A DNA stretch of 64,000 nucleotides from Paenibacillus sp. KS-LC4 (lineage in GTDB: Bacteria; Bacillota; Bacilli; Paenibacillales; Paenibacillaceae): assembly GCF_036894955.1 (NCBI RefSeq), contig NZ_CP145905.1, positions 813,501 through 877,500 on the forward strand, in the 5' to 3' direction. A program made the translations under genes and the position numbers. The notes beneath the pieces were generated by a model. That model saw nothing but the letters and a program-made list of their open reading frames with translations. It had not been told where the DNA came from and ran no database searches. How positions within the stretch are numbered: the first letter of the stretch is position 1; the number at the start of each line of letters is the position of its first letter. Below, piece by piece: positions 27,729 to 33,871 of this stretch.

Positions 27729-28148
27729 ATGAGTAAAAAACAATGGGCTGGCGCGATGCCGGCCGTACAATTCAGAGTAGCAAGACCGACGAACCAATTG
27801 GCTGAGGTGGCCGCTTTTTATGAACAGGGACTTGGTCTGCAACGAATTGGCTCCTTCGAGGGGCACGCTGGGTACGACGGGATGATGTTCGGCCTGCCGG
27901 GGGTGGACTACCATTTGGAGTTTACGCAGCATGTCTCGGGGGCGCCGCTTGCAACACCATCCGAGGATAATCTGCTAGTGTTTTACATGGAGGAGCGCGA
28001 GCAGCAGCTATTGATCGCCAAGCGGCTATTGGAGCTGGGCTACCCTGAGGTGGAGCCGGAAAACCCTTACTGGAAGCAAAAAGGCATCACCATCGCCGAT
28101 CCCGACGGCTATCGTATCGTGCTGCAAAATTCGTCTGGACTGAGCTAA
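27729..28148 (+). CDS. VOC/glyoxalase-fold protein
   Basis: A 139-residue protein of the vicinal-oxygen-chelate superfamily: VQFRVARPTNQLAEVAAFYEQGLGLQRIGSF, DYHLEFTQH, and IADPDGYRIVLQN at the end. His/Glu positions that could bind a metal are present (HLEFTQH, DPDGYRIVL). Members include glyoxalases, dioxygenases and antibiotic-binding proteins, so the activity cannot be assigned. The start is ATG 27729 with GAGGAGGT 8 bases upstream. Its terminator has been split by the downstream insertion sequence. Confidence 0.85.
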   Translation: MSKKQWAGAMPAVQFRVARPTNQLAEVAAFYEQGLGLQRIGSFEGHAGYDGMMFGLPGVDYHLEFTQHVSGAPLATPSEDNLLVFYMEEREQQLLIAKRLLELGYPEVEPENPYWKQKGITIADPDGYRIVLQNSSGLS

Positions 28149-28331
28149 TTGCGGACTAATGGAAGGTTGAACGAAAGAAACGGGATTTGGAAAACTCAAA
28201 AAAGAAAACCGCACTAAAGCTTTGCTTACTTGTCTAGGAACTGACCCCATAACGTGAGACAAATCAAAACACCTTTAAGTTGAAATGACGAGTGTTGTAA
28301 AATACTTGTACAACTTGGAGGTGTTTTTTAC

Positions 28332-28655
28332 GTGGGGACAAGGGTCAGCTATCCAGTAGAGGTGAAAATGAAGGCAATCGAATTGCGATTAGCCGGGGTT
28401 CCTGTAAAAGAGGTTATGGAGCAGTTGAACATCATGAATTACACGCAGCTAAAGGTGTGGATGAAATGGTATAAGCAGGGCGAAGCCCATCGACTGGAGC
28501 AGCCTGTGGGCAAGCAGTATAGCTATGGGAAAGGGCCTAAATATGATTCAGAGGCAGCAAGGCTGGAAACGGAGAATCGCTTTCTAAGGCAACAAATTGA
28601 ACTTTTAAAAAAGTACAACACCATGAAAAGGAGTGGGTTGTCCCAGAAATCATAA
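28332..28655 (+). CDS. IS3-family transposase OrfA
   Basis: A 107-residue protein. The N-terminal HTH (YPVEVKMKAIELRLAGVPVKEVMEQLNIMNYTQLKVWMKWY) binds the terminal repeats, and the C-terminal leucine-zipper-like helix (ARLETENRFLRQQIELLKK) mediates multimerisation. The start is GTG 28332 with GGAGG 10 bases upstream. Near its end the frame crosses A-AAA-AAG, where ribosomes can slip into the orfB frame. Confidence 0.9.
   Translation: MGTRVSYPVEVKMKAIELRLAGVPVKEVMEQLNIMNYTQLKVWMKWYKQGEAHRLEQPVGKQYSYGKGPKYDSEAARLETENRFLRQQIELLKKYNTMKRSGLSQKS
28607..28613 (+). other. Programmed -1 frameshift site
   Basis: AAAAAAG lies in the orfA reading frame as A-AAA-AAG, the classic bacterial slippery heptamer. 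The -1 frame from here runs without a stop into orfB, giving an OrfAB fusion. Confidence 0.8.
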
Positions 28656-28684
28656 TCGCCTTCATCGAGACTTCCAAGTCACAA

Positions 28685-29482
28685 ATGAGTATTCAAGGCT
28701 TATGTGAACTCTTGGGCGTCTCAAGAGCAAGCTATTATCGTTGGAGAAAGCAGCCTGTGAACAAGAGCGATGAGCGTCTTACAGAACGTATTCGGACACT
28801 CTGCGTGGAACACAAGTTTCGCTATGGCTATCGTAAAATTACGGCTAGTTTGAGTGAGGAGACCCCTGTCAATCATAAAGCGGTTCAGCGTATCATGCAG
28901 CGAGAAGGCTTGCAATGCAAGGTGAAAGTCAAGAAGCGTAAACAAACAGGGGCACCTACCTATGTCGCGGATCATCTGCTCAAACGTCAGTTCAAAGCAG
29001 ACAAGCCCTTACAAAAGTTAGTTACAGATATTACCTACTTGCCATATGGACCTAAAATGCTGTATCTTTCTAGCATTCTCGATTTATTTAATGGTGAGGT
29101 TATTGCTGCAACGATTGGAGATACCCAAGACACAGCGTTTGTCCTGGATACCTTAAGCCAGCTTCCAACTTTGCCAGAAGATTGTATGCTACACAGTGAT
29201 CAGGGCTCTGTGTATACCTCCGCCGCCTATCAACAAACGGTAAAAGGAAAAGGCATTACCATGAGCATGTCCCGTAAAGGAACGCCCGCTGATAATGCCT
29301 GCATCGAATCGTTTCATGCCACCCTCAAGTGCGAAACGTTCTATCTCGACCGATTGACCTGTACAACGACGGCAATCGTTGTACAGACGGTCACAGACTA
29401 CATTGATTATTATAACAACATTCGTATTCAAACGAAACTAAATAACCAGTCGCCTAGTAAGTACCGGCAACTGGCTGTTTAG
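28685..29482 (+). CDS. IS3-family transposase OrfB (DDE catalytic part)
   Basis: 265 residues from the first ATG; in vivo it is most likely made mainly as the C-terminal part of an OrfAB fusion through the upstream frameshift, since the frame stays open back to 28607. The HTH_21-type N-terminus is MSIQGLCELLGVSRASYYRW. The DDE integrase core has VTDITYLPYG (first Asp), MLHSDQGSVYTS (second Asp) and ADNACIESFHATLK (Glu). The C-terminal YNNIRIQTKLNNQSP is typical of the IS150 group. No disruption is seen. Confidence 0.92.
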   Translation: MSIQGLCELLGVSRASYYRWRKQPVNKSDERLTERIRTLCVEHKFRYGYRKITASLSEETPVNHKAVQRIMQREGLQCKVKVKKRKQTGAPTYVADHLLKRQFKADKPLQKLVTDITYLPYGPKMLYLSSILDLFNGEVIAATIGDTQDTAFVLDTLSQLPTLPEDCMLHSDQGSVYTSAAYQQTVKGKGITMSMSRKGTPADNACIESFHATLKCETFYLDRLTCTTTAIVVQTVTDYIDYYNNIRIQTKLNNQSPSKYRQLAV

Positions 29483-29549
29483 TTAAGGTGTTTTGATCCT
29501 TGTCTCAAAAACGGGGGTCAGTTCCCTATGGGTGAGCAGAGCTTTTTTT

Positions 29550-29833
29550 ATAGATGAATCAAGATAGTTCTCGCCGCCTGAGTTTCCCCGAAAGACAAGT
29601 ATTCAAATATGCTGTTAAAGTTGAAAACTTAAAATAAAGGAGATATACTATCATTAATTGATAGTAAAATATATCAATTGATAATTATTCTATCTCATAT
29701 TTCTCGTTGCTGAGCCAGTATGGCTAGGGCGTGTAGGCAAACTGGGGATAACCTGCTGCAACCTGTCTAACGTTTCTCTGGGCTCCATCTATGTTGTGCA
29801 GGGATTCAACACATAAAGAAAGGAATGATGAAG
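29550..29833 (+). promoter_or_regulatory. CYP102 promoter with two palindromic operators
   Basis: This intergenic stretch contains TTGAAA (29621-29626), a 17-base spacer and TATACT (29644-29649), a good sigma-A promoter. An inverted repeat with 8-bp arms TACTATCA / TGATAGTA (29646-29666) overlaps its -10, and the 12-bp palindrome TATCAATTGATA lies at 29672-29683. Both share TATCA...TGATA half-sites, so one repressor could bind both and block transcription. The remaining ~130 bases form an untranslated leader in which I see no ORF. The likely regulator is a TetR protein. Confidence 0.7.
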
Positions 29834-32800
29834 ATGAAAGACAAAATTTCTATTCCCCACCCCCCAACGTATGGTCCGCTAGGCAATTTACCCTTGATTG
29901 ACGTAAATTCGCCCACCTTATCCCTTGGAGCTTTGGCAGAAAAATACGGGCCTATTTTCAAATTTACTGCACCGGGGCTATCGAGTTTAATTGTTTCAGG
30001 CCATGAGCTCGTGGCTGAGGTGTGCGATGTGACTCGATTTGATAAATATGTATACAACGAGCTGCAGAACGTTCGCGCCTTCGGCGGTGACGGGTTGTTT
30101 ACAAGCTGGACGCATGAGCCGAACTGGAAAAAAGCGCACAACATCCTGCTGCCCACGTTCAGCAAGCAGGCGATGAAGGGATATCACTCTATGATGATAG
30201 ACATCGCCGATCAGCTAATGCTCAAGTGGGCACGGCTAAACCCTCAGGATACGATTGATGTAGCCGATGATATGACGCGATTGACGCTGGATACGATTGG
30301 ACTGTGCGGCTTCAATTACCGCTTTAACAGCTTTTACCGGGAGGATCATGCCCCCTTTGTCAAAAGCATGGTTCGCGCTTTGAACGAAGCGATGCTCAGA
30401 GGCTCGCGGATGAAAATTCAAAATATGTTGATGGTCAAAACAAAACGTCGTTTTGAAGAGGACATTCAGACGATGTTTACGCTGGTGGATAAAATCATTG
30501 CCGAACGAAAGGCAGGCTCGGAGCCGGGACAGACGGATTTATTGGCACGCATGCTGGAAGGCAAGGACCCGGAGAGCGGAGAAATGCTGGATAACGAAAA
30601 CATTCGTTATCAGATCATTACCTTTCTGATTGCAGGTCATGAAACGACGAGCGGTCTGCTATCCTTTGCGATTTATTTCCTGCTGAAGCATCCGGAAGTG
30701 CTTACGAAGGCTCAGAAAGAAGTAGACCGCGTGCTGACAAGTAAAGCTCCGCAATATGAGGAGGTTCTCCAGCTTAACTACATCCGTCTCATATTAAATG
30801 AATCACTGCGGCTGTGGCCGACTGCTCCAGGGTTTGACGTTTATGCCAGAGAGGACACGAGCATTGGCGGGAAGTATCCCATCCCCAAGGGACAAAGTCT
30901 CAGTGTGCTATTGCCTCAGCTTCACCGTGATCCGGCTGCATGGGGAGAGGATGCAGAGCTTTTCCGGCCTGAGCGGTTTGAGGATATGTCCAAGGTTCCT
31001 CATCATGCTTACAAGCCTTTTGGAAATGGCGAACGCGCCTGCATCGGCATGCAGTTTGCCCTCTATGAAGCCACATTAGTACTAGGTATGGTACTGAAGC
31101 AATTCGACTTGCTCGATTACGACAACTACACATTGGACGTTAAGCAGACTCTGACGCTGAAGCCCGGTGATTTCCGAATTCGAGTGAAGCACCGTCAGCA
31201 GGTATCCACCAGTGTAACCGTAGGAATAACAGGAGTATCGGAAACAAAACCTGAGGCCTCTCCATTTAGTGCTGCGGATAAGGTTGTGCCAGGTATAGTC
31301 GAAACACCGAACGGCAAGGGACAGCTGCTTGTATTATATGGCTCAAATCTGGGCGCAGCGGAGAGCATTGCCCGTCAGATCACAAGTACGGCTCTTGGTT
31401 ACGGCATCCAAAGTGAAACAGCTCCACTTAATGAATGGAGTGGACGACTGCAAGGACAAGGCATCGTCATTATCGTTACGGCTTCATACAATGGCAAGGC
31501 TCCTTACAATGCGTCGGCATTTGTAGAATGGCTGAAGGGGGCCGGAATAGATGAGGGGCAAGCTGTCCGATATGCGGTATTAGGCTGCGGAGACCGCTCC
31601 TGGTCGGGAACGTACCAGAGCATTCCACGCTTTATAGATGAGAAGCTGGATGCCATCGGCGCGGAAAGAGTTGTATCCCGGGGTGAGGTTGATGCAGGGG
31701 ACGATGTGGAGCAGCAGGTTAAGGAGTGGCTGGCTGTGATGTGGCGGGCGGTTACGGAAGCGCTGGGTTTAGAGGTAAATCAGATCGAGACTGCCCATCC
31801 AAGCTCGCTTCAGCTCCAATTTGTTGAAGGACCGCCGCGAGTTCCATATGGGAAAACCTATCAAGCCGCCTATGCGACTGTTCAAAATAATCGCGAGCTG
31901 CAAGCCTCGGAAAGTGGACGCAGTACTCGCCACATCGAAATTCTCCTTCCCGAAGGCATCAGCTATCAAGAGGGTGATCACATCGGCGTGCTGCCTCTTA
32001 ATGGGGATATAAATGTAGACCGCATTTTGAAGCGGTTTGGCATGGACGGCAGCGAAATGATTTGCTTAAGCACCGAAGGTACACATCTGACCCATCTGCC
32101 TCTTGAGCGATCCGTCAATGTACGTGAGTTGCTTCAATCCTGTGTGGAAATTCAGCTGCCCGTTACTCGTGCCCAGCTACAGGAGCTGGCTGTTCATACG
32201 GTCTGCCCGCCGCATCGCCGTGAGCTGGAGGCCATGATGGAGGATGAGCGCTACACGCTGCATATATTAGGCAATCGAGTAACGATGCTGGAGCTGCTCG
32301 AACAATATGCTGCCTGCGAGCTTCCTTTTGTCAGGCTGCTGGAATTGCTGCCTCCATTGAAGCCGAGGTATTACTCTATATCCAGTTCTCCGCTGCTCCA
32401 TCCGAGAGAGGCTAGTATTACGGTAGGCGTCGTTAAGGATCAGGCATGGAACGGCAAAGGAGAATATGCAGGAGTTGCTTCTAATTATTTGGCAGAGCGT
32501 GCACCAGGCGACCGTGTTCTCCTATTTGTACAGACGCCGGAATCTGGATTTAGACTGCCTGAGAAGGCAGCTGTGCCAATAATCATGATCGGGCCTGGGA
32601 CAGGAGTTGCTCCGTTCAGAGGATTTTTGCAGGCTAGATATGCTTTGAAAAAGCAAGGGGTGACGCTCGGAGAAGCCCATCTGTTCTATGGGTGCAGAAG
32701 CGAGATGGATTTCCTGTACCGAGCTGAGCTGATGCAGTTCGAGCAGGAGGGTATTGTTAAGCTGCACACCGCTTTCTCGCGCGAGGCTAGCGAACCGAAA

Positions 32801-33052
32801 GCCTACGTACAGGATTTAATGAAGCAGGTTTCTTCCTCGCTGATGAATCTCATGGAACAAGGCGCCAAAATATATGTGTGTGGCGACGGCAGCCGGATGG
32901 CTCCTGCGGTAGAGAAAACATTAAAGGCTGCTTATATGGAAAGGTATGGAGCAACAGCAGAAGCAGGTGACCGCTGGCTCCAGCAGCTAGAGCAGGACAG
33001 TCGGTATGTAAAGGATGTATGGGCTGGAAATTCCAAGCCTACAGTGTCATAA
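29834..33052 (+). CDS. CYP102A self-sufficient cytochrome P450 / P450 reductase fusion
   Basis: A 1072-residue homologue of P450-BM3, a soluble fatty-acid subterminal hydroxylase that carries its own reductase. The heme domain has AGHETT (I-helix, oxygen activation), ESLR (ExxR) and [10 protein letters not shown] with heme-ligand Cys403. The active-site GDGLFTSW (BM3 Phe87) is kept. The carboxylate-binding Arg47/Tyr51 of BM3 are Leu/Ile here, as far as I recall closer to B. subtilis CYP102A2/A3. The FMN domain starts near [19 protein letters not shown] (~495), followed by FAD domain ([10 protein letters not shown]) and NADPH site ([13 protein letters not shown]). The start is ATG 29834 since AAAGGA abuts the two earlier ATGs. 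It should oxidise medium or long fatty acids. A TetR gene follows on the same strand. Confidence 0.95.
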
Positions 33053-33186: not shown

Positions 33187-33229
33187 TCAATTGTGAAACG
33201 GTCAATTGCATTCGCGGTTATGCTATAAT
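33187..33229 (+). promoter_or_regulatory. Extended -10 promoter and TCAATTG repeats before the TetR gene
   Basis: TGCTATAAT (33221-33229) is an extended -10; no good -35 is seen. TCAATTG occurs at 33187-33193 and 33202-33208, and shares the core of the TATCAATTGATA palindrome at the CYP102 promoter. One regulator may act at both sites. Confidence 0.45.
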
Positions 33230-33304
33230 TTCATGGTAATCCCCTGCTATTTGATTGGAAGGGGAATCAATTATAGAATAATACTCTCCAAGGAGTGTAA
33301 TAAA

Positions 33305-33871
33305 ATGAGAACAGAAATGTCATCAATCAAGCAAACGAGGCTTAACTCCATTCTGGATGAAGCGACCAAGCTGCTTATTGAGAAGCCAAATGCGTCGATG
33401 AATGAAATTGCAGATTCGGCAGGAATCGGAATCGCTACGCTGCATCGATATGTGGAAAGCAGAGAGCAATTGATGATTTATTTGGGTCTGCGTGCAATCG
33501 AGGTTGTTAATGAAACGATGCGCGGTATTCCAATGGATGAGGAGCATTATGAAAACTATATCCCCATGCTCATTGAAGCGCTCATTCCATTGGGGGACAA
33601 GCTGCACTTCATTGCCCACGATTCAACCATTAATTATAACGAGGAAATTATTGGGGCAGATCAGAAGCTGAGGGAACCTGTGCTGCATATCATCGGCTTG
33701 TTGCAGCAAAAAGGTTATTTTCGCCATGATGTAGACAAAAACTGGATTGTGAATGTCCTGTATTCACTCCTTTTTCTAGCGTGGCAGCAAGTGGTGAGCG
33801 GGGACATTGCCAGAAAATCCGCAGCGGCACTGGTCGTGGATACCTTTTATCATGGCTTTAAAACCCCATGA
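33305..33871 (+). CDS. TetR-family regulator next to CYP102
   Basis: A 188-residue regulator with an N-terminal HTH (RLNSILDEATKLLIEKPNASMNEIADSAGIGIATLHRYVESREQLMIYL) and a helical C-terminal ligand domain. The start is ATG 33305 with AAGGAG 9 bases upstream. Bacillus CYP102 genes are controlled by fatty-acid-responsive TetR-type repressors (FatR) encoded next to them. Here the gene is downstream and has its own promoter. The shared TCAATTG element supports a link to the P450 promoter, but binding is unproven. Confidence 0.82.
   Translation: MRTEMSSIKQTRLNSILDEATKLLIEKPNASMNEIADSAGIGIATLHRYVESREQLMIYLGLRAIEVVNETMRGIPMDEEHYENYIPMLIEALIPLGDKLHFIAHDSTINYNEEIIGADQKLREPVLHIIGLLQQKGYFRHDVDKNWIVNVLYSLLFLAWQQVVSGDIARKSAAALVVDTFYHGFKTP

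Follow-up and report, generated by a model that had tools for sequence, protein, structure and literature searches.

An IS3-family insertion sequence in the loop of a Paenibacillus terminator and the probable preference of its lineage for terminator hairpins

The IS3 family is one of the commonest families of bacterial insertion sequences, and one of its members lies between two genes of Paenibacillus sp. KS-LC4 in a manner that raises the question of how such elements choose their targets. The window analysed here (64,000 nucleotides of contig NZ_CP145905.1, positions 813,501 to 877,500) had already been the subject of an original prediction, which placed the element in the loop of a transcription terminator and suggested that terminator loops could be its preferred target. 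Is this site a single accident, or does it reflect the behaviour of a whole lineage?

A direct reading of the locus agrees with the first part of that proposal (Table 1). The arms AAAGCTTTGCTTAC and GTGAGCAGAGCTTT form 14 pairs, two of them G-T, with a run of seven T adjoining, and they lie on either side of an element bordered by CTA at both ends. Excision of the element together with one CTA leaves a loop of 10 nucleotides, TTGTCTATGG, exactly as had been anticipated, and the joined site has a folding energy of −20.9 kcal/mol (z −4.8), a stability that none of 200 dinucleotide shuffles equalled. Insertion into the loop of the host terminator duplicated 3 bp and kept the stem, both arms being present as in the empty site. 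The two flanking genes are intact, as was also claimed: a whole YycE-like/glyoxalase-fold gene ends at 28148 on the left, and a whole CYP102-type P450-reductase fusion occupies 29825-33052 on the right. Upstream of the latter we find two dyads, CTATCATTAATTGATAG (29648-29664) and TATCAATTGATA (29672-29683), largely kept in a congener (L311), which may constitute an operator of the downstream ORF at 33206-33871, given that this ORF has by eye the look of a TetR-type regulator.

Table 1. Coordinates, within the window, of the insertion, its host terminator and its internal features.
Feature	Position	Strand	Basis or remark
IS3-family insertion sequence	28237-29525	+	1289 bp; letters, inverted ends, model match
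Host terminator stem, 5′ arm	28216-28229	+	letters, fold; present in congeners L311 and L313
Host terminator 3′ arm (29532-29545) and T run (29543-29549)	29532-29549	+	letters, fold, congeners
Target-site duplication CTA, left copy	28234-28236	+	single copy in empty site L311
Target-site duplication CTA, right copy	29526-29528	+	letters
Left terminal inverted repeat	28237-28262	+	inverted-repeat search
Right terminal inverted repeat	29500-29525	+	inverted-repeat search
Left-end hairpin, arms 28266-28279 and 28314-28327, T run 28324-28329	28266-28329	+	fold, alignment
orfA (HTH), GTG start	28332-28655	+	ORF list, domain models
A6G run in overlap of orfA and orfB frame, candidate −1 slippage site	28607-28613	+	letters
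orfB (integrase core), from first ATG; frame open further upstream	28685-29482	+	ORF list, domain models

The element runs from GGAACTGACCCC to GGGGTCAGTTCC, with inverted arms of 26 nt that are 77% complementary, and has the terminal inverted repeats and the 3-4 bp duplication that the IS3 family requires. OrfA matches the helix-turn-helix models HTH_28 and HTH_Tnp_1, and the orfB frame, with 293 open codons in −1 relative to orfA, encodes a product scoring 289 bits against the IS3-family transposase model NF033516 (cut-off 160). The residues of the DD(35)E triad (D115, D172 and E208, with 35 residues between the last two) are invariant in A1. Ends of IS3-family elements are typically TG..CA. 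Those of the window element and of most copies of its clade A (OrfB identity of about 60% or above, including Paenibacillus, Bacillus, Lysinibacillus, Terribacillus and others) are GG..CC instead, and TG..CA, which occurs in other terminator-targeting groups, is absent there. Because model, triad, frames and duplication all agree, the GG..CC ends are held to be a variation within the family, and by the sequence features tested, these ends excepted, the element is an IS3-family member. The 3′ end of orfB (about 29447-29480) also shows by eye an inverted repeat, seen with different bases at this place across far-diverged groups (L131, L211, L274 and others), which may reflect either a coding constraint or a structure.

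Did the hairpin exist before the element arrived? A search of 51 genomes of the genus with the 637 bases left of the insertion gave matches in four genomes beyond the window's own. In two of them, G048 (L311) and G035 (L313), the hairpin is uninterrupted where the window carries the element, and the L311 sequence across the empty site, ..GAAAGCTTTGCTTACTTGTATCTATGGGTGAGCAAAGCCTTTTTTTATA.., contains CTA once. These empty sites fold well, at −18.8 (z −4.8) for L311 and −19.7 (z −6.8) for L313, as the original prediction demanded of sister strains; for the other two left-flank matches (L312 and L314), the joined site gave no match. The genome holds only one other copy of the element (G000:C1:4278833-4280121, L001), which is 100% identical, has a GGA duplication and sits between two ORFs that both point toward it. 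Its joined flanks form a terminator-like hairpin with an outer stem of 9 bp and an inner one of 6 bp (fold −25.6, z −8.2), and this site is uninterrupted in G035 and G048 as well. Both genomic copies (2/2) therefore lie in hairpins predating insertion, in line with what had been expected of further copies, and the idea that the element itself supplied one hairpin arm is ruled out by the uninterrupted hairpins of the congeners at both sites. Since the two copies are identical, their insertions are probably recent.

Whether this behaviour extends beyond one genome was addressed with relatives from three sources: the genus, where 33 of 51 genomes had a match; genomes of named species (the best 80 of at least 523 confirmed loci); and the family, where 124 of 394 genomes reached E ≤ 1e-60. 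The terminal motif, together with the duplication of 3-4 bp, served to set the element ends. Of 97 loci with ends, 22 were repeats of a site already present; with repeated sites removed, clade A has 63 copies with duplications. Four other IS3-type copies from the window's genome (L034, L035, L039, L040) do not enter the counts, nor do G309_314 and G309_183, for which no ends could be defined, L113, L121 and other loci without ends, or loci at or close to the end of a contig. The duplex energy of 35-nt flanks was dropped as a measure: random host positions also score well (medians of −10.5 for all host positions and −9.1 for non-ORF positions), and this poor discrimination led to the use of an ungapped stem score (GC 3, AT 2, GT 1, mismatch −3; loop of 3-20; stem spanning the insertion). 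A strict test asked for a score of at least 25 plus a tract of A or of T (5 of 8); score and threshold were picked after the data had been seen, and thresholds from 18 to 28 agree.

The strict test is passed by 37 of the 63 clade A copies, and 45 of 63 pass at a threshold of 20. Among 6120 random host positions the strict test is passed by 0.34%, and among 5731 such positions outside ORFs by 0.9%. Some of the 26 copies that fail have interrupted stems, such as L001, whose score is just 10 despite its strong fold; six others (L006, L008, L041, L084, L101 and L112) show little hairpin. Clade A copies without a duplication, counted apart, reach a score of at least 25 in 6 of 11 cases. Several named species are hosts of passing copies: all four copies of Terribacillus halophilus pass (L107-L110), as do B. 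pumilus L106, three copies of Paenibacillus alvei (L089-L091; L092 fails), two of Bacillus spizizenii (L095 and L098; L093 fails) and three of Lysinibacillus macroides (L114-L116; L117 and L118 fail). Empty sites could be found elsewhere too. When the joined flanks of four copies from genome G264 were compared with 100 congeners, each site was uninterrupted at full length in at least two, that of L200 being so in five genomes at 99-100% identity, and the nine congener stretches that were fetched all keep the hairpin (9/9), with some sequence differences. Altogether, the preference for terminator loops suggested in the original prediction is strongly supported, with both genomic copies in hairpins and relatives far above the controls. 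Two derivatives of the clade with internal deletions, of about 605 bp (L009) and 924 bp (L012), keep both ends and duplications and, by eye, also lie in terminator hairpins, and it is possible that they are non-autonomous elements sharing the target preference.

The geometry of insertion is quite regular. Of the 65 sites whose stem scores 25 or more, 63 have the duplication centred no more than 6 nt from the middle of the loop, and 36 no more than 3 nt from it; the offsets lean to the right, a lean that the score may itself create by assigning the duplication to the left flank. The duplication measures 3 or 4 bp in 107 of the 108 copies having one. With a simple ORF call, 17 of 101 examined copies lie inside a predicted ORF, and the 72 intergenic sites with both neighbours assigned comprise 47 between convergent, 23 between tandem and 2 between divergent genes. 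The excess of convergent genes may be an effect of survival. In this line, the available part of a published survey describes insertion sequences in general as under-represented between divergent genes (PMC9208149).

What could the element be reading at such sites? One answer would be transcription itself: where a terminator is at work, the integration complex would recognise not the hairpin in the DNA but RNA polymerase, a hairpin in the RNA or an R-loop. The targets are indeed terminator-like, with a left A tract and a right T tract together in 57 of 65 sites, and sites between convergent genes, which are transcribed from both sides, predominate; however, at tandem sites the element shows no preference of orientation (11 versus 12, small numbers), and we consider this explanation unlikely. 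Recognition of a conserved sequence motif whose presence in terminators is coincidental, in the way that REP-targeting elements recognise REP sequences, is much less likely still. The outer flanks are A-rich on the left and T-rich on the right, with up to 0.71 bit at +16, and IS3-family precedents such as ISPsy8 and IS1397 do use a repeated target (PMC1525189, partial text). Against it, the 11 nt on either side of the duplication hold no position above 0.21 bit across the 65 hairpin sites, and the duplications themselves are diverse, the commonest one, GAC, occurring in 5 of 65. Moreover, joining left flanks to right flanks taken from different copies, a control that preserves composition and tracts, destroys the stems: in 200 such trials among clade A copies, stems of at least 25 numbered 2.7 on average and 7 at most, against 38 of 63 in the true pairing. 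Given that no base beside the insertion is strongly conserved, symmetry or structure is probably what is recognised and what the targets have in common.

The weakest explanation, that insertion occurs without any preference and only those insertions persist that break no gene, at gene ends, finds some support in the intergenic location of most sites and in the 47 of 72 between convergent genes, where the cost of insertion should be least, but it is very hard to maintain when random positions no more than 80 nt from the 3′ end of an ORF meet the strict test in only 2.6% of 5560 cases compared to 59% of clade A copies, when strong stems arise only with the correct pairing of flanks, and when PF01609 transposase elements, which face identical selection in these Paenibacillaceae genomes, pass in none of 14 scorable cases (0/14, five of them without a duplication; G291a, G309 and G117 unscored for nested or unclear ends, and L255 lacking a usable end). 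The unscored PF01609 element of G117 (L234, L242, L251, L258) seems by eye to lie directly beside hairpin sequences.

We therefore favour, with a probability of about 0.85, the reading that a lineage of IS3-family elements prefers intrinsic terminators as targets, inserting in or near the hairpin loop and duplicating 3-4 bp. Transposition of IS3 elements proceeds through a minicircle, and it is the joined ends of this circle that attack the target. The transposase would read dyad symmetry or structure, either an extruded cruciform or the A-tract/stem/T-tract DNA, instead of base sequence, and would favour the apex of the hairpin. Such a choice of terminators would place the element between genes, mostly convergent ones.

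The consequences for the host may depend in part on a second hairpin, carried by the element at its left end. The outer stem of this structure, 14 bp long, encloses an inner stem that varies between copies; a T run and the start of orfA come next, and the ribosome-binding site of orfA lies inside the 3′ arm. The motif is present in 72 of 74 clade A copies, with the outer stem folding at 10 or more positions and an inner stem of at least 4 bp, and the alignment gives no covariation support for the outer stem, which is nearly invariant. By eye, a similar left-end stem that runs into Ts ahead of the start codon is visible in representatives of the other terminator-targeting groups. A consensus terminator scan of 28100-29900 listed no site, and its loop limit of 8 nt also misses the left-end hairpin. 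Hiding the ribosome-binding site within a hairpin on read-through RNA is a device of other insertion sequences. The left-end hairpin fits such a role, and it fits equally the termination of transcription arriving from the left, the two functions being compatible with each other.

These features bear on the proposal, made in the original prediction, that the insertion disconnects the terminator and might let transcription read in. The arms are indeed separated, and the split host terminator would no longer form, but the supposed effect is uncertain: the left-end hairpin with its T run could stop or silence incoming transcription, and it may in this way partly replace the broken host terminator. 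Transcription could also run out of the right end toward the CYP102-type gene. A wider reading joins all these elements, namely that a broad IS3 lineage of Bacillota would recognise the shape of terminator DNA regardless of its sequence, insert at the apex and bring its own terminator-shaped hairpin that hides the ribosome site, a terminator swap nearly invisible to the host. We put it forward tentatively, as somewhat less than an even bet.

How far does the preference reach within the family? Several distant IS3 groups of the Paenibacillaceae resemble clade A in this respect. Group B (about 40-44% OrfB identity, with ends TGGTATTATCCCC), initially fetched as an outgroup, passes the strict test in 11 of 21 copies. 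A second and distant IS3 element of the window's genome, with ends TGGTACGCTCCC..GGGGAGCACTTCA, sits in terminator hairpins in all three copies (L036, L037 and L038). Other groups vary widely, from G264_330 (6/7) and G143_358 (3/3) to G155_303 (1/2), G117_320 (1/3) and G197_344 (0/1), and A2, with 52-58% identity in staphylococci and others, passes in one of five. Pooled without A2 and G197_344, the groups outside clade A have a stem of at least 25 in 26 of 39 copies, as against a mean of 1.35 and a maximum of 6 after re-pairing of flanks. In the tree, InsF of IS3 and InsD of IS2 stand apart from the terminator-targeting groups, although deeper joins are weak and long branches were flagged. 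The row nearest to InsK of E. coli IS150 is L261, from the terminator-targeting element G143_358 (100/99), and the joins between clade A and the InsK group are weak. IS150 itself passed the stem test in none of 12 copies, these being chromosomal hits picked among 60 listed of 3429 records, with three pairs that look identical and hence about nine distinct sites. Since E. coli IS150 gave 0/12, terminator preference is not common to every IS150-like element. Eight of those 12 copies (L332-L338 and L342) lie within 150 bases of a hok, mok or Ibs type I toxin-antitoxin gene.

If the main reading is true, a clade of the IS3 family picks its targets by the shape of a hairpin and not by sequence, and would offer a tractable system for the study of structure-guided DDE transposition. 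It would also help to account for the persistence of such elements without damage to genes, and copies of the element could serve as natural markers of terminators, above all between convergent genes.

Several known systems resemble this behaviour in part. The transposase of IS1272 and TnSha1 belongs to another family, IS1182. According to the part of the work on these staphylococcal elements available to us, they target hairpins, several of them confirmed terminators, with no primary sequence specificity, as clade A does, but they remove part of the stem in a blunt-ended deletion and leave no duplication, whereas the elements studied here duplicate 3-4 bp and leave the stem in place (PMC4923244). 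Among relatives, IS150 of E. coli and ISSau2 of Staphylococcus aureus, both of the IS150 subgroup, share with the window element the IS3-family affiliation and the two ORFs. The A6G frameshift run of ISSau2 resembles that of the window element, and the available portion of the ISSau2 literature makes no mention of terminators (PMC5771124). Similarly, the accessible portions of the IS1447 literature and of a large IS survey (PMC9208149) report no terminator targeting, and no description of it for IS3-family elements was found in the open-access literature searched. The closest parallels are ISPsy8, IS1397 and ISKpn1, also IS3-family elements with intergenic targets (REP or PU sequences). In the accessible part of that work, the 3-bp duplication of ISPsy8 falls exactly at the symmetry axis of the hairpin predicted for its REP target, and the hairpin insertions described here lie at or near such an axis; the targets of those three elements, however, are a repeated element with a shared sequence, while the terminators hit by clade A differ from copy to copy (PMC1525189). 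The window element probably works like the known structure-targeting elements, as an IS3-family member that duplicates its target and has no fixed target sequence.
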